A stretch of DNA of 64,000 nt, taken from NCBI RefSeq assembly GCF_008802405.1, contig NZ_VZDO01000002.1, forward strand, positions 1 through 64,000, in the 5' to 3' direction. Below the pieces are notes generated by a model. It had not been told where the DNA came from. It saw only the letters and a program-made list of their open reading frames with translations, and ran no database searches. Below are positions 19,042 to 27,610 of the stretch, piece after piece. A program made the position numbers and the translations under genes. The stretch comes from Plantimonas leprariae. Lineage in GTDB: Bacteria > Pseudomonadota > Alphaproteobacteria > Rhizobiales > Rhizobiaceae. Positions within the stretch are counted from its first letter, which is position 1, and each line of letters begins with the position of its first letter.

Positions 19042-19131
19042 GGATGGGTGGCCGAGCGGTTGAAGGCACCGGTCTTGAAAACCGGCGGGCGGGTAACCGC
19101 CTCGTGGGTTCGAATCCCACCCCATCCGCCA
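19042..19131 (+). tRNA. tRNA-Ser (UGA)
   Basis: A 7-bp acceptor stem, GGATGGG/CCCATCC, frames a class II tRNA with a long variable arm (CGGGCGGGTAACCGCCTC region). The anticodon loop is CTTGAAA with anticodon TGA, and the T arm is GTGGGTTCGAATCCCAC. The discriminator is G at 19128, followed by an encoded CCA to 19131. Antisense frames over it give the classic false protein ending in FNRSATHP and should not be annotated. Confidence 0.97.
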
Positions 19132-21065: not shown

Positions 21066-22226
21066 ATGCAGACGACAGGAGCGGCGCTTCGGCGGAAGTC
21101 GGTTGTGACATTCGGCCTTCTCGCCGTCGTGTCGCTTGCGGGTTGCCAGGCGGAGCCGGCGGGGCACGCGAAGGCGGACCGCATCAAGAGCGATCCGAAC
21201 GAGCGCTTCACGGAAGCCAAGTACGGCGTGAAGGCCAGCCCACGCGTCACGGATCTGCGCAGGGTTCCGAAGGGCGGCGGCCGCGACCAGGTCGGCCGGC
21301 CCTACAAGGTTGCCGGCAAGTGGTACTATCCGAAGGAGCAGCCGGGCTATTCGAAGGTCGGCAATGCGTCCTGGTACGGTGCGAGCTTCCACGGCCGGCT
21401 CACCGCGAACGGCGAAGTCTACGACATGTTCGGCCTTTCGGCCGCTCACCCGACGTTTCCGCTACCGTCCTACGCCCGCGTGACCAACATGGACACCGGC
21501 GCGAATGTCGTGGTCCGGGTCAATGACCGCGGCCCCTACGTCTCCGACCGGATGATGGATCTTTCGTCCGAAGCGGCGGAGCTTCTCGGCTACAAGACGA
21601 ACGGCACCGCGAAGGTGAAGCTCGACTATATCGGCCGCGCGCCGCTGGAAGGCGACGACACGGCGATGCTGATGGCGAGCTTCCATCCCGGCAACGTCGC
21701 GCCGTCCGTCAACGACGGCCTGCCGTCGGGAGTGATGCTGGCGATGAACGAAACGGCGCCGCGCGGCGACCGCGTCTTCGGCCGCGCGCAGCCGTCGTCC
21801 GCGCTGCCGGGTGTCCGGCCCGTACCGGGCGCTGCTTCCGGCCAGACGACGATCGATTCGATCATCCAGGGGAGCCAGGGCGTTCCCACGCCGGCAACCA
21901 AGCCTCATCGGTTCGATCCGTCGAACCTCATCGTCGCATCCTATGCGCCGGCGGTCGCCAAGCCGACGAACGGCGCGGCCGGCGCGATCGGCTCGATGCT
22001 CGGCGCGCGCGAGACGACGCAGCGGATCGAGATCGGCGTGCTGGGCGATCCGGCGACTCTCGCCGCCGTGCGCGCCGTCGCCGACAAATACGGGCGGCTC
22101 GTCGCCGATCCGGACGGGAAGGCGACCTCCTACGTGCTCGAGACGGCGGCCTCGGTGGATGTCGATGTGGTGCTGCGCGAGGCGTGGCAGGCGGGGGCAG
22201 GGGACGCGTTCGTCCTGCGCGACTGA
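21066..22226 (+). CDS. rlpA: RlpA-family septal-ring lipoprotein (putative lytic transglycosylase)
   Basis: RlpA proteins act at the septum or cell wall; some cleave denuded glycan strands. The 386-residue product has a lipoprotein signal peptide with the lipobox LAGC, the cysteine falling near residue 27. The double-psi beta-barrel domain (about residues 90-200) includes GNASWYGASFHGRLTANGE, YDMFGLSAAHPTFPLPSYAR, VVRVNDRGPYV and DRMMDLSSEAA. A long low-complexity linker follows, and the C-terminal 65 residues may be a degenerate SPOR-like domain. Whether it is catalytic cannot be told. The long upstream region with a near-CtrA site could hold its promoter. Confidence 0.92.
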   Translation: MQTTGAALRRKSVVTFGLLAVVSLAGCQAEPAGHAKADRIKSDPNERFTEAKYGVKASPRVTDLRRVPKGGGRDQVGRPYKVAGKWYYPKEQPGYSKVGNASWYGASFHGRLTANGEVYDMFGLSAAHPTFPLPSYARVTNMDTGANVVVRVNDRGPYVSDRMMDLSSEAAELLGYKTNGTAKVKLDYIGRAPLEGDDTAMLMASFHPGNVAPSVNDGLPSGVMLAMNETAPRGDRVFGRAQPSSALPGVRPVPGAASGQTTIDSIIQGSQGVPTPATKPHRFDPSNLIVASYAPAVAKPTNGAAGAIGSMLGARETTQRIEIGVLGDPATLAAVRAVADKYGRLVADPDGKATSYVLETAASVDVDVVLREAWQAGAGDAFVLRD

Positions 22227-22306: not shown

Positions 22307-23491
22307 ATGACCACGATCAGATGCCTCGGCCGGAACCTGCTGCTGACGGGCGCGATGCTGCTTGCGGGCGCGCTGGCCGGCATGGCCGCCGAGCCTTGGT
22401 CGCCGCGCGACACCAAGGCGGCGCAGGCGTTGGTGATGGACGGCGAGACCGGCGCCATCCTGTTCGAGAAGAATGCCGACAAGCCGTTTCCGCCGGCATC
22501 GCTGGCGAAGCTGATGGCGATGGAGGTCGTCTTCGAGGCCGTCGACAAGCACAAGGTTCGGCTCGACCAGACCTTTCCCGTCAGCGACCACGCCTGGCGG
22601 ACCGGCGGCGCGCCGTCCGGCGCCTCCACCATGTTCGCCAAGCTGAAATCGCAGGTGCCGCTGGACGCGCTCATTCGCGGCGTCATCGTGCAGGCGGCGA
22701 ACGATGCGGCCATCGTAATTGCCGAAGGCATGTCCGGTTCGGAGGAGGCTTTCGCCGGATTGATGAACGACCGCGCGCGGCAGCTCGGGCTCGCGGGCTC
22801 GACCTTCGTCAACCCGACGGGGCTTCCCGCGCCGGGCCAGAAGGTGACGGCGAGGGATCTCGCCACGCTCGCCCGCCATATCGAGGAGGCGCATCCCGAC
22901 CTCTACCGCATCTATTCCGAGCCGCAGTTCGAGTGGAACAAGATCACGCAGCGCAACCGCAATCCGCTGCTGCAGCAGGAGCTCGGCGCGACGGGGATGG
23001 GCACCGGCTTCACCGAGGCCGGCGGCTATTCGATGGTCGGCGTCACGCAGCAGGACGGACGCAAGACGTTCATGATCCTCGGCGGGTTGCCGACCATCAA
23101 GGACCGGCAGGACGACGCCCGGCGGATGATCGAGTGGTCGAACAGCGCCTTTCGCCGCGACGTGCTGTTCGACGCCGGGGCGCGGGTCGGCAAGGCGTCT
23201 ATCTATGGCGGCCTGCAGCCCGAGATCGACATCGTGACGCACGAGCCGCTCGTCGCCTTCGTGCCGACCGACAAACCGGAACGCGTGAAGGCGCGCGTCG
23301 CCTACGACTGGCCGCTGCGCGCGCCGATCGAGGATGGACAGAAGGTCGGGCGGATCGAGGTGACGATCGACGACAGCGTCAGCGTGGTGCACGACGTCTT
23401 CGCCGCGACGAAAGTGGAGCAAGGCAGTTTCGCGGGGAGGGCGCTCGACGCCGCGCAGGAACTCGCCCTCGGCTGGATCCGCGCGCTTTGA
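22307..23491 (+). CDS. D-alanyl-D-alanine carboxypeptidase homologue (PBP5/DacA family) with altered SxN and KTG motifs
   Basis: The family trims the terminal D-Ala from peptidoglycan stem peptides in the periplasm. The 394-residue product has a signal peptide (NLLLTGAMLLAGALAGMAA), the S11 peptidase domain (about 30-270), and a C-terminal PBP5-associated beta domain plus a terminal helix. The acylation motif SxxK is intact as S65-L-A-K68. The second motif SxN reads A130-A-N132, and the third, normally KTG, reads G232-T-G234. If these alignments hold, activity may be reduced or altered. tmk follows 19 bp downstream. The gene symbol is withheld because paralogues cannot be told apart. Confidence 0.88.
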   Translation: MTTIRCLGRNLLLTGAMLLAGALAGMAAEPWSPRDTKAAQALVMDGETGAILFEKNADKPFPPASLAKLMAMEVVFEAVDKHKVRLDQTFPVSDHAWRTGGAPSGASTMFAKLKSQVPLDALIRGVIVQAANDAAIVIAEGMSGSEEAFAGLMNDRARQLGLAGSTFVNPTGLPAPGQKVTARDLATLARHIEEAHPDLYRIYSEPQFEWNKITQRNRNPLLQQELGATGMGTGFTEAGGYSMVGVTQQDGRKTFMILGGLPTIKDRQDDARRMIEWSNSAFRRDVLFDAGARVGKASIYGGLQPEIDIVTHEPLVAFVPTDKPERVKARVAYDWPLRAPIEDGQKVGRIEVTIDDSVSVVHDVFAATKVEQGSFAGRALDAAQELALGWIRAL

Positions 23492-23510: not shown

Positions 23511-24188
23511 GTGAGCGGCTTCTTCATCACCTTCGAGGGCGGGGAAGGCGCAGGCAAGTCGACGCAGATCGCGCGGCTTGCGGAACGTCTGCGTGCCAGA
23601 AGGATGGACGTGGTGACGACGCGCGAGCCCGGCGGCTCGGAAGGCGCGGAAGCGCTGCGCCATGTCCTGCTTTCCGGCGCGGCCCGTTCGAGCGGCGATC
23701 CCGACCTCGAGCCGATCCTCTTCGCGGCGGCTCGGGCGGATCACGTCGCGTCGCTGATCCGCCCCGCGCTGGATGCCGGCCGCACCGTGATCTGCGACCG
23801 CTTCCACGATTCCACCCGCGTCTATCAGGGCCTCGCCGGCGTCGATGCCGACCTGATCGCGCTGCTCGAGAAGCTCGCGGTCGGAATCACCGTGCCGAAC
23901 CTGACGATCGTCCTCGACGTTCCGGCGGAAACCGGCGTCGCGCGAGCCCGCGAAAGACGCGGCAGCGCCGGTCCCGACCGGTTCGAGGCGGACGATCTCG
24001 CCGTCCACCAGCGCCGGCGACAGGCGTTCCTGGATCTCGCGCAGCGCGAGCCGCAGCGCTGCGTCGTGGTGGACGGCTCGCGCGGCGTGGACGATGTCAC
24101 CAAGGAGATCGCCTTTCTCGTCCACGACCGGCTGGACGGGCAGCGGCTCGAACGCAGCTCGATGCTGGGCGACGACTCGATCATATGA
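23511..24188 (+). CDS. tmk: Thymidylate kinase
   Basis: Tmk phosphorylates dTMP to dTDP in the dTTP pathway. The GTG start at 23511 gives 225 residues. The P-loop is FEGGEGAGKSTQ near the N terminus. It is followed by the DR(Y/F)-type motif CDRFHDSTRVYQG and the LID region ARARERRGSAGPDRFE. The TGA overlaps the ATG of holB, which suggests translational coupling; tmk-holB is a widespread pair. Charged residues in the LID and a glycine-rich P-loop support normal activity. Confidence 0.95.
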   Translation: MSGFFITFEGGEGAGKSTQIARLAERLRARRMDVVTTREPGGSEGAEALRHVLLSGAARSSGDPDLEPILFAAARADHVASLIRPALDAGRTVICDRFHDSTRVYQGLAGVDADLIALLEKLAVGITVPNLTIVLDVPAETGVARARERRGSAGPDRFEADDLAVHQRRRQAFLDLAQREPQRCVVVDGSRGVDDVTKEIAFLVHDRLDGQRLERSSMLGDDSII

Positions 24189-25216
24189 TGCCGACACTCG
24201 TCGGCCTGGAGCAGCACGACACGCTGCCGGGCATTCCTTCGCCGGCCGAAACGCCGCGGGTGCTGGGGCACGGCGAAGCCGTCGCGCAGTTTCGCCAAGC
24301 CTGGCAATCGGATCGGCTGCACCATGCGTGGCTGATGCAGGGGCCGCGCGGCAGCGGCAAGGCGACGCTCGCCTTCGCCTTCGCGCGCGAGCTTCTGGCG
24401 GCGCAGGGGGGTGATGCGGCGGCGGCCGACTTGGCGCGGCAGGTGGCGTCCGGATCGCATCCGAACCTTGTGCATATTGTCCGCCCGCCGGCGGATCGCG
24501 GCGGCTTCCGCACCCAGATCACCGTCGACGAGGTGCGCAAGCTCAATCGCTTCTTCCAGACGACCTCCGGCTCGCGCCAGTGGCGCGTCGCCATCGTCGA
24601 TCCCGTCGACGATATGAACCGCAACGCCGCGAACGCGCTCCTGAAGATGCTGGAGGAGCCGCCCGCCCGCTGCCTGTTCCTGATCGTCAATCACCTGCCG
24701 GGGCGACTGCTGCCGACCATCCGTTCGCGCTGCCGCGTCATCCGGCTGGAACCGCTTTGTCTCGACGTCGCGGTGGACGTGCTGGAATCGCTCGAAATCG
24801 GGGTGACGCGTGACGAGCTGCGCGCGGCCGCCCAGCGTTCGAACGGTAGTGTGCGCGATGCTATCCAGCTTCTGTCGAGCGGCGGGCTGGAAACCGAGAA
24901 GCGGCTCGACTCGCTGCTCGGCACGCGCGAACCGGAATGGCACGGCATCCAGGCGCTCGCCGACGAGCTTACGCAGAAGGACCGGGAAACCGCTTTCGAG
25001 CTCGCGGTCTCCAGCCTGTTCTCGCGTCTGGCGGCGGAAAGCGAGCGGGCGTCCGCTGCCGGCGACCTGCCGAGGGCAGAGAGTCTCGCCGCGCTTTGGC
25101 AGAATGAAGCCGAGCGGTTCCGGGAGGGGCTGCTCTACAACCTCGACCGGCGGCAACTGCTGCTGACGCATTTCGCCAAGCGTTTCGCCGCGGATCGCTC
25201 GCCCGAGGCGCATTGA
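24185..25216 (+). CDS. holB: DNA polymerase III, delta-prime subunit
   Basis: Delta-prime is a structural subunit of the clamp loader that helps open the sliding clamp. The 343-residue product starts at ATG 24185, overlapping the tmk stop. It has an AAA+ fold with a degenerate P-loop region MQGPRGSGKATLAFAFARE, followed by RKLNRFFQTTS and the well-conserved NAANALLKMLEEPP and TIRSRCRVIRLEPL (arginine-finger region SRC). The long upstream open frame overlaps tmk and is not used. A probable metG promoter begins inside its stop codon. Confidence 0.94.
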   Translation: MMPTLVGLEQHDTLPGIPSPAETPRVLGHGEAVAQFRQAWQSDRLHHAWLMQGPRGSGKATLAFAFARELLAAQGGDAAAADLARQVASGSHPNLVHIVRPPADRGGFRTQITVDEVRKLNRFFQTTSGSRQWRVAIVDPVDDMNRNAANALLKMLEEPPARCLFLIVNHLPGRLLPTIRSRCRVIRLEPLCLDVAVDVLESLEIGVTRDELRAAAQRSNGSVRDAIQLLSSGGLETEKRLDSLLGTREPEWHGIQALADELTQKDRETAFELAVSSLFSRLAAESERASAAGDLPRAESLAALWQNEAERFREGLLYNLDRRQLLLTHFAKRFAADRSPEAH

Positions 25217-25273: not shown

Positions 25274-26815
25274 ATGGCCGAGCGCTTCTACATCACGACG
25301 GCGATTTCCTATCCGAACGGCAGGCCGCATATCGGCCACGCCTACGAGCTGATCGCGACCGACGCGATCGCCCGCTTCAAGCGGCTGGACGGTTACGACG
25401 TGATGTTCCTGACCGGTACGGACGAGCACGGGCAGAAGATGCTGCAGACGGCGCGGAACGAGGACATTCCGGTGGAGGCGCTGGCCGACCGGAACTCGGC
25501 CGAGTTCAAGCGCATGGCCGAGGTGCTGGACGCCTCGAACGACGACTTCATCCGCACCACCGAGGAGCGGCATCACCGCGCCTCGCAGGAGATCTGGCGC
25601 CGCATGGCGGATGCCGGCGACATCTATAAGGATACCTATGGCGGGTGGTACTCGGTGCGCGAGGAGGCGTTCTACGGCGAGGACGAGACGACGCTTCGCG
25701 AGGACGGCACCCGGTTCGGCCCGCACGGCACGCCGGTGACGTGGGTGGAGGAGGAGAGCTACTTCTTCAAGCTGTCCGCCTTCACCGAACGGCTGCTCGC
25801 GCACTATGAGGCGAACCCGGACTTCATCGGTCCCGCCGAGCGGCGGAACGAGGTCGTGTCTTTCGTGAAGCAGGGGCTGCGCGACCTCTCGGTGTCGCGC
25901 ACGACCTTCGACTGGGGCATTCCGGTGCCGGACGCGCCGGGTCATGTGATGTACGTCTGGGTCGACGCGCTGACGAACTACCTGACCGCGACCGGCTTTC
26001 TGGAGGACGGCGAGCGGAGGGATTTCTGGCCGGCCGACCTCCACGTTATCGGCAAGGACATCGTGCGTTTCCACGCGGTCTATTGGCCGGCCTTCCTGAT
26101 GTCCGCCGGCCTGCCAGTGCCGAAGCGGGTGTTCGCGCACGGCTTCCTCTTCAACAAGGGGGAGAAGATGTCGAAGTCGGTCGGGAACGTCATCGACCCG
26201 TTCGCGCTCGTTTCGACCTACGGCCTCGACCAGTTCCGCTACTTCCTGCTGCGCGAGGTTCCGTTCGGCCAGGACGGCAACTACTCGCACGAGGCGATCG
26301 TGAACCGTACGAACTCCGAGCTGGCGAACGACCTCGGCAACCTCGCGCAGCGCTCGCTTTCCATGATCGCGAAGCACTGCGACGCGGCGGTGCCGCAGCC
26401 GGGCGCGCTGGGGCCGGCCGACGAGACGCTGCTGCGCGCGGCGACGGAGCTGCTCGCCACCGCCCGCATGGCCATCGACCGGCAGGAGCTTCATGCGATG
26501 CTGGCGCCGATCGTCACAGTCGTCGCGGACGCGAACCGCTACTTCGCGTCGCAAGAGCCGTGGGCGCTGCGCAAGAGCGATCCGGCGCGCATGGCGACCG
26601 TGCTTTACGTCACGGCGGAAACGGTGCGCCGCGTCGCGATCCTCTTGCAGCCGGTGATGCCGGCCAGCGCCGCGAAGCTGCTCGACCTTCTCGGCGTCGA
26701 GGCGGACGAGCGCAGCTTCGATGAATTGACGCCGGACGTCGCCCTCGTGCCCGGCCGCCCGCTGCCGACGCCGACCGGCGTCTTCCCGCGCTACGTCGAG
26801 CCGGACGCCGCCTGA
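25274..26815 (+). CDS. metG: Methionyl-tRNA synthetase
   Basis: MetG charges tRNA-Met, including initiator tRNA. The 513-residue product has the class I HIGH-type signature [12 protein letters not shown] near residue 15 and the KMSKS loop as [14 protein letters not shown] near residue 300. The short form has no C-terminal tRNA-binding (EMAPII-like) domain, as is common in alphaproteobacteria. The zinc knuckle of the long form is replaced by the compact [17 protein letters not shown] type. The tatD ATG follows immediately after its stop. Confidence 0.96.
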
Positions 26816-27610
26816 ATGTACGTGGTCGACAGCCACTGCCATCTCGACTTCCCGGACTTCGACGAGGACCGGGACGCGATGATCGAGCGGGCCAGGGCCG
26901 AAGGCGTGCGCACCATGCTGACGATCTCGACGCGCCCGTCGAAGTTCGGGCGGCTTCGCGAGCTGGCCGAAAGGTATCCCGACGTCTACGCGACCATCGG
27001 CACGCATCCGCTCAGCGCTGCCGAAGAGCCGGAGATGGGGGCGGACGAATACCTCCGCATCGCCGCCGAGCCGAAGGTCGTCGGCATCGGCGAAGCCGGC
27101 CTCGACTATTTCCACGACCGCGCGCCGCGCGACGTGCAGGAGCGCGTGTTCCGCCGCCAGATCGGCGCGGCGCGGACAACCGGACTGCCGCTGGTGATCC
27201 ACGCACGCGAATGCGACGCGGACATGATCCACATCCTGACCGAGGAGAGCGGGCAGGGGCCCTTCCGCTTCGTCCTGCACTGCTTCGCTTCGGGCGAAGA
27301 ACTCGCGCTGCGCGGCCTCGAACTCGGCGGCACCGTCTCGTTCTCCGGCATCCTGGCGTTCAAGCGCTCGGACGAACTCCGCGCGATCGCGCGACAGGTG
27401 CCGCTCGACCGGCTGCTCGTCGAGACCGACGCGCCGTACCTCGCGCCGCCGCCGGATCGCGGCAAACGGAACGAGCCGTCCTACGTCGTGCGCACGCTGG
27501 AAGCCCTGGCGGCAGCGAAGGACCTGCCAGTCAGAGAAATGGCGCGGATCACGACGGACAACTTCTTCCGGCTGTTCTCCAAGGTGCCGGATCCCCGAGG
27601 CGCGGCTTGA
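26816..27610 (+). CDS. tatD: TatD-family metal-dependent hydrolase (DNase)
   Basis: TatD enzymes are two-metal hydrolases with 3'-5' exonuclease activity linked to DNA repair. The 264-residue TIM-barrel protein shows the metal ligands in DSHCHLDF near the N terminus, GEAGLDYF (about residue 92), IHAREC, LHCFASG and ETDAPYLAPPPDRGKRNEPS. Its ATG directly abuts the metG stop, and its stop overlaps the TTG start of the next gene. The metG-tatD-MBL order is common in this lineage. The physiological substrate is uncertain. Confidence 0.94.
   Translation: MYVVDSHCHLDFPDFDEDRDAMIERARAEGVRTMLTISTRPSKFGRLRELAERYPDVYATIGTHPLSAAEEPEMGADEYLRIAAEPKVVGIGEAGLDYFHDRAPRDVQERVFRRQIGAARTTGLPLVIHARECDADMIHILTEESGQGPFRFVLHCFASGEELALRGLELGGTVSFSGILAFKRSDELRAIARQVPLDRLLVETDAPYLAPPPDRGKRNEPSYVVRTLEALAAAKDLPVREMARITTDNFFRLFSKVPDPRGAA

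Follow-up and report, generated by a model that had tools for sequence, protein, structure and literature searches.

Judged from comparison of its sequences, the rlpA-linked PBP5 orthologue of rhizobia and their relatives is subject to recurrent loss of catalytic residues, and the altered copy carried by a 64,000-nucleotide stretch of Plantimonas leprariae DNA (hereafter the window) is not a lone oddity. PBP5 is the textbook DD-carboxypeptidase, and the lysine of its KTG motif binds the terminal carboxylate of the substrate and is needed for carboxypeptidase activity. A positional orthologue of this enzyme has repeatedly been left without key active-site residues and yet has been retained, even in three genomes of 1.2-1.9 Mb. 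We consider it likely that the window protein is a maintained PBP5-like pseudoenzyme with no working DD-carboxypeptidase activity, that other S11 enzymes do the trimming, and that the protein itself would serve as a non-catalytic binder or scaffold, plausibly together with RlpA.

Results and discussion

The rlpA-linked dac gene of the window

By synteny (rlpA-dac-tmk), the window gene is orthologous to the PBP5-type DD-carboxypeptidase gene found next to rlpA in other proteobacteria. It lies between rlpA and tmk in the order rlpA-dac-tmk-holB-metG-tatD, with all six genes on the forward strand (Table 1), and rlpA and/or tmk adjoin the orthologue in 203 of the 204 genomes tallied for the rhizobial family. 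An rlpA neighbour is also present at many of the gammaproteobacterial and alphaproteobacterial orthologue loci that we fetched, and E. coli has an rlpA-dacA gene pair. Because dac stands beside rlpA in the window, in the family and at gammaproteobacterial loci alike, the gene is by position the counterpart of classical DacA/PBP5.

The gene product matches the Pfam model Peptidase_S11 (E 5.6e-64, 216.3 bits against a curated cut-off of 27.6) and, C-terminal to it, PBP5_C (E 6.8e-16, 58.7 bits against a cut-off of 21.2). It falls short of the NCBIfam equivalog cut-offs for DacD (228 of 610 bits) and DacA (176.9 of 694 bits), models that are probably narrow. The N-terminus of the 394-residue frame resembles a signal peptide by eye, and GC content at the three codon positions (0.67/0.47/0.90) follows the pattern of a translated gene. 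The nearest named relatives belong to Aureimonas, at 74% identity. Elsewhere in the window there is a tRNA-Ser gene, overlapped by several mechanically called open reading frames that are probably spurious, and a PADLOC search gave no match indicating a defence role.

Table 1. Features of the window at and around the rlpA-linked dac gene
Feature	Position	Strand	Evidence or remark
tRNA-Ser (anticodon TGA)	19042..19131	+	
rlpA, DPBB lytic transglycosylase-like protein	21066..22226	+	E117, H128 and D154 present; start codon provisional
dac, PBP5-type protein (Peptidase_S11 and PBP5_C), 394 aa	22307..23491	+	translation, Pfam, alignments, AlphaFold model, structure search; motifs 2 and 3 altered
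Motif 1, SLAK (S65, K68), intact	22499..22510	+	translation; codons S65 TCG at 22499, K68 AAG at 22508
P103, loop between motifs 1 and 2	22613..22615	+	
Motif 2, AAN replacing SxN (Ser lost, Asn kept), residues 130-132	22694..22702	+	A130 GCG at 22694, N132 AAC at 22700
T229	22991..22993	+	replaces the Asp of DGxKTG, which 99% of intact orthologues in the family have (genus-weighted)
Motif 3, GTG replacing KTG (Lys lost), residues 232-234	23000..23008	+	G232 GGC at 23000, T233 ACC at 23003, G234 GGC at 23006
K253	23063..23065	+	Arg in the family orthologues with intact motifs, and in 72% of those that are Lys-less
C-terminal helix, residues 375-393, possible membrane anchor, judging from PBP5	23429..23485	+	predicted helix
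tmk, thymidylate kinase	23511..24188	+	
holB, DNA polymerase III delta'	24263..25216	+	start approximate
metG, methionyl-tRNA synthetase	25274..26815	+	
tatD-family DNase	26816..27610	+	

Translation of 22307-23491 confirms what the sequence-only reading had reported, namely an intact SxxK motif, an SxN motif that reads AAN and a KTG motif that reads GTG, with the codons listed in Table 1. Compared with an active S11 DD-carboxypeptidase, the window protein has the SxxK motif and lacks both the SxN serine and the basic residue of KTG. Specifically, in comparisons with the structures of Pseudomonas PBP5 (4k91) and E. coli PBP6 (3it9), AAN lies opposite SGN and GTG opposite KTG. Both alignments are gap-free at the motifs, which rules out shifted motifs with a substitute serine and lysine. 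An error of frame, strand or sequencing is also ruled out, since the same states recur in relatives. Indeed, AAN/GTG is found in all five same-genus genomes typed (the window genome included), and the five named Aureimonas loci carry AAN/GTG (three), AAN/ASG (one) and AAN/ALG (one).

The AlphaFold2 model of the window protein, built with 30 aligned sequences of which some come from Lys-intact relatives, has a pLDDT of 87.5 and a pTM of 0.81, and the predicted structure is clearly a PBP5 fold overall. Its best structural matches are Pseudomonas PBP5 (Z 41.2) and PBP6 (Z 40.9), and Foldseek agrees. The C-terminal helix is modelled with a pLDDT of about 50-75. Streptomyces K15 DD-transpeptidase is an active enzyme. 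The catalytic domain of the window protein aligns with this enzyme and its laboratory mutants (S96A, S216A and K38H; PDB) at 1.5-1.7 Å over 241-246 residues, but the changes in the window protein and its relatives are natural and occur across many genera. With the PBP5 (DacA) proteins of E. coli and P. aeruginosa, the window protein shares the whole-length fold, the domain order, SxxK, the SxN asparagine, the C-terminal helix and, at many loci, the rlpA neighbour, whereas it differs from them in AAN/GTG, and residues 229 and 253 depart from those of intact orthologues.

Motif loss in the family and order

The family tally covers 204 genomes from 96 genera, comprising 199 of the 235 matched family genomes and five more from another search; the remaining 36 matched genomes, which were not selected by motif, were not typed. 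The order-level set of 40 genomes yielded 34 that were typed, four with weak matches only and two with partial matches that were not fetched. In total, 345 loci were reduced to 291 by excluding 54 (paralogues, repeat genomes, non-syntenic loci and those scoring below 230). Named and unnamed loci were tallied separately because the same genomes may be present in both sets.

The KTG lysine is lost in 124 of the 204 family genomes (hereafter Lys-less), with replacement by G (50), A (46), V (13), E (8), L (3), T (2), Q (1) or S (1), and neither R nor H occurs at this position among the 124 Lys-less rows. The SxN serine is lost in 86 genomes, all of which are Lys-less, and in none of the 80 Lys-intact ones. 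Because the serine losses are confined to Lys-less rows, the lysine appears to have been lost first in the family. The nucleophile serine is replaced in nine genomes (genera g37, g103, g111 and g117). The SxxK lysine (K68) and the SxN asparagine (N132) are kept in all 204 genomes, and G234 in 203.

By genus, 50 are wholly Lys-less, 44 are wholly intact and two are mixed (g41 and g124, each with one Lys-less and two intact genomes among three typed). The KTG lysine is missing from all 16 named Sinorhizobium/Ensifer loci, of which 15 read LAN/ATG and one QAN/ATG; the Sinorhizobium meliloti orthologue has LAN/ATG, and the Methylobacterium loci have intact motifs. Outside the family, 34 genomes of the same order were typed: all motifs are intact in 26, the lysine is missing in six and two deviate in other ways. 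The loci of these two break the order of loss seen in the family: L168 (NxN/KPG) has lost the serine while the lysine stays, and L142 has lost K68 and N132 while KTG is intact. The nucleophile is also gone in two rows outside the family (L148 and L171), in which the gene is retained.

The sequence-only reading had suggested that loss of both residues should weaken or change the classical chemistry, perhaps in a subfamily with another role. Comparison among orthologues supports this suggestion, in that the change is recurrent and often genus-wide, the fold appears unchanged and intact S11 paralogues are present. That reading was right but understated, as it missed the rlpA-linked PBP5 orthology and the spread and repetition of the loss. 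We found no description of a degenerate rlpA-linked PBP5 group in the open-access literature, a search that did not extend to supplements, and earlier notice is possible.

Altered or residual catalysis

If the altered protein were still a serine acyl-enzyme with changed specificity, then S65, K68 and N132 would support acylation, and loss of the carboxylate-binding lysine would open the cleft to another substrate, which could be crosslinks (for an endopeptidase), an amidated or otherwise modified stem, or beta-lactams alone. Of the 124 Lys-less family rows, 115 still have the nucleophile serine, a larger share than might be expected if catalysis had simply gone, and this speaks against a pseudoenzyme; the constancy of K68 and N132 favors acylation as well. 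Similarly, according to the title of a 1992 paper cited in PMC9430164, the K213R mutant of E. coli PBP5 still binds penicillin although its carboxypeptidase activity is gone. By analogy, Bocillin labelling of the window protein may persist, and the penicillin insensitivity that the sequence-only reading offered as one option need not apply. Against these points, the replacements at position 232 differ even within genera (G/E in g21, G/E/A in g42 and A/V in g112), and such variety fits loss of chemistry better than new chemistry. A substitute basic residue is ruled out, since those gained in Lys-less rows (at positions 152, 95, 193 and 357) are not widely conserved, with none exceeding 61% even at position 152, the best of the four. 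Furthermore, Ser130 is also gone in 86 of the 124 Lys-less rows, and the gene persists where the nucleophile has been replaced, both inside and outside the family. On balance, we regard an enzyme of altered specificity as unlikely.

We judge it quite improbable that the protein is a weak but ordinary DD-carboxypeptidase, in which the backbone of the GTG strand and a basic residue at position 253 would be enough for low turnover. The window protein does retain T233 and G234, and K253 in place of R253 is still basic. However, by the same title, E. coli PBP5 loses its carboxypeptidase activity even through the conservative K213R change, and the window protein has lost Ser130 too. E. coli PBP5 S44G is reported to lose septal localisation and to fail to complement cell shape, and both are reported to depend on the active site (PMC2909392). 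With K232 and S130 both absent, neither trimming nor E. coli-style localisation is expected of the window protein, yet the gene is kept.

Constraint on the Lys-less gene

The Lys-less gene evolves faster yet remains mostly under purifying selection. Using NG86 on same-genus pairs with dS between 0.05 and 1.5 (loci lacking a genus name were pooled as one group), the median dN/dS is 0.11 for 165 Lys-less pairs versus 0.157 for 201 intact pairs, medians that rest on few genera because Methylobacterium supplies 153 of the intact pairs and Sinorhizobium/Ensifer 60 of the Lys-less pairs. Distance relative to Tmk has a median ratio of 1.39 for Lys-less copies versus 0.97 for intact ones, and Aureimonas within-genus pairs have dN/dS values of 0.13-0.45. 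These higher values indicate that constraint is partly relaxed in Lys-less copies.

In the 80 intact orthologues, 61 columns show an invariance of 98% or more, and the 124 Lys-less rows retain these columns at a median of 0.976. Retention is lowest for K232 (0), S130 (0.31), V180 (0.52), T233 (0.70) and R253 (0.72), of which V180 is not among the known catalytic residues. Since K232 and S130 head this list, loss is concentrated mainly on active-site positions. Of the 124 Lys-less rows, 123 match over 340 aa or more. In the exception (genome G032, locus L129), the match spans 309 aa, a further C-terminal part is matched in a second frame and the gene is apparently frame-broken near the C-terminus; this genome also carries an intact long-form second copy (L175).

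Even genomes of 1.2, 1.5 and 1.9 Mb (G132, G130 and G116, respectively) still carry the degenerate copy. An orthologue-level match is absent from 12 of 247 genomes, namely all four of genus g118 and eight genomes of 1.0-2.0 Mb, and the gene is therefore not indispensable. The g118 genomes (G123, G194, G246 and G288; 4.3-5.0 Mb) have only two S11 genes each (L294, L297, L298, L300 and L302-L305). That the gene is merely decaying towards loss while being carried by a housekeeping operon is very hard to credit, because although the raised rate relative to Tmk, the apparently broken L129 and the 12 genomes without a match would suit such a fate, it conflicts with a match of 340 aa or more in all other Lys-less rows, dN/dS near 0.1, a median retention of 97.6% for near-invariant columns and a Lys-less state that is genus-wide, as in Sinorhizobium/Ensifer.

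Other S11 genes and RlpA

The sequence-only reading proposed looking for an intact paralogue elsewhere in the genome. Indeed, the window genome has three more S11 genes, all with SxxK, SAN and KTG intact, in frames of 332, 413 and 810 aa. The 810-aa frame (L003:790-3219, reverse strand) joins an S11 domain to a C-terminal SPOR domain, a layout similar to that reported for the SPOR-type DD-carboxypeptidases of Bradyrhizobium (DD-CPase1) and A. tumefaciens (DacA, Atu1505). These are DD-carboxypeptidase relatives of the window dac, but they represent another gene at another locus, carry the SPOR domain and have as their counterpart here a copy whose motifs are intact.

In total, three or more S11 genes are present in every one of the 40 Lys-less genomes counted, and their mean number, 4.18, barely departs from the 3.83 of 40 intact genomes (Mann-Whitney p 0.056). 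A second long-form S11 copy, seen as two matches at 1e-60, is present in 20 of 247 genomes and additionally in G004, and all 21 of these genomes are Lys-less at the rlpA locus. The eight second copies that were read (L175-L182) have intact SxxK, SxN and KTG motifs and lie away from rlpA and tmk; five of the eight were placed on the gene tree, where they form their own clade outside the Hyphomicrobiales orthologues. This pattern fits a hand-over of activity in part of the family. As a general explanation the second copy fails, because more than 100 Lys-less genomes are without one and the carriers come from few genera, such that it explains part of the losses at most.

The E, H and D residues of RlpA are present in every readable row, Lys-less and intact alike (the E could be read in 93 of the 117 Lys-less and 56 of the 75 intact rows). 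Since they are kept in both groups, a partnership of the PBP5-like protein with an active RlpA is possible, and support for it comes only from their neighbourhood, in a cluster that also holds tmk-holB-metG-tatD.

In the family, loss thus begins with the KTG lysine, goes on to the SxN serine and occasionally reaches the nucleophile serine. For a maintained pseudoenzyme, we hypothesize that D-Ala trimming would be done by other S11 enzymes, such as the three with intact motifs here, whereas the protein itself would act in the periplasm as a binder or scaffold. Its constant neighbour RlpA is a plausible partner, perhaps in septal or polar wall remodelling. Holding the cleft together, or binding the stem peptide without turnover, is the probable task of the retained SxxK lysine and SxN asparagine. 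A comparable way of working may be seen in the catalytically inactive LytM factors, which are reported to regulate other cell-wall hydrolases (PMC8416486), a case of a dead cell-wall hydrolase fold kept for regulation. The likeness is an analogy only, as LytM factors have an unrelated metallopeptidase fold and a regulatory role of the PBP5-like protein would be hypothetical.

Published work on S. meliloti names dac, SMc00996, SMc00683 and SMc00068 as putative DD-carboxypeptidases (PMC7327166) and describes reduced fitness under NCR247 upon insertion into smc01188 (pbp5C; PMC5539429). In A. tumefaciens, dac is reported to be synthetically lethal with loss of LD-transpeptidases (PMC11527210). 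No match of the rlpA-linked orthologue to any of these S. meliloti tags or to A. tumefaciens dac was established. The availability of intact and altered natural relatives, including pairs within two genera, together with the model species S. meliloti, offers a way to ask what roles PBP5 has beyond D-Ala trimming. At the rlpA-linked locus, automatic annotation as a DD-carboxypeptidase may often mislead.

Number of losses and position 103

Repeated loss is well founded in kind, and less so in number. A gene tree made by a quick method with the motif columns removed (173 rows, comprising 168 orthologues and five intact paralogues) requires at the fewest seven changes for the lysine, 18 for the serine and six for any SxxK change; when only losses are allowed, the counts are 13 for the lysine, 25 for the serine and six for the nucleophile serine. 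For a neighbour tree of RlpA and Tmk (155 rows, also by a quick method), the corresponding counts for lysine, serine and nucleophile serine are 15, 17 and six as fewest changes, and 15, 25 and six as losses only. State-change counts do not separate gain from loss; given intact motifs in the outgroups and across most of the order, we read the changes as losses. Independent pairs on well-supported (starred) branches number only five on the gene tree and six on the RlpA and Tmk tree.

A broader proposal, which we hold to be evenly balanced between true and false, is that the rlpA-linked PBP5 orthologue in the rhizobial family and its order has turned perhaps 15 times into a non-catalytic regulator that binds the wall or RlpA, with the order of loss fixed in the family, the SxxK lysine and SxN asparagine always kept, and a change to proline at position 103 tending to occur alongside. 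If true, natural active-site knockouts would here lay bare a further function of PBP5 that is not enzymatic.

Position 103 is proline in 74 of 79 Lys-less tree rows versus 31 of 89 others, and proline also accompanies losses outside the family. Among the five to six pairs on supported branches of the two trees, on average 2.0 and 3.4 change the same way, and 0.2 and 0.1 the other way. As a proven convergent marker P103 was rejected, because a sign test with five to six pairs is unable to reach 0.05, and we treat it as no more than a lead. Proline is likewise present at this position in the intact paralogue L175.
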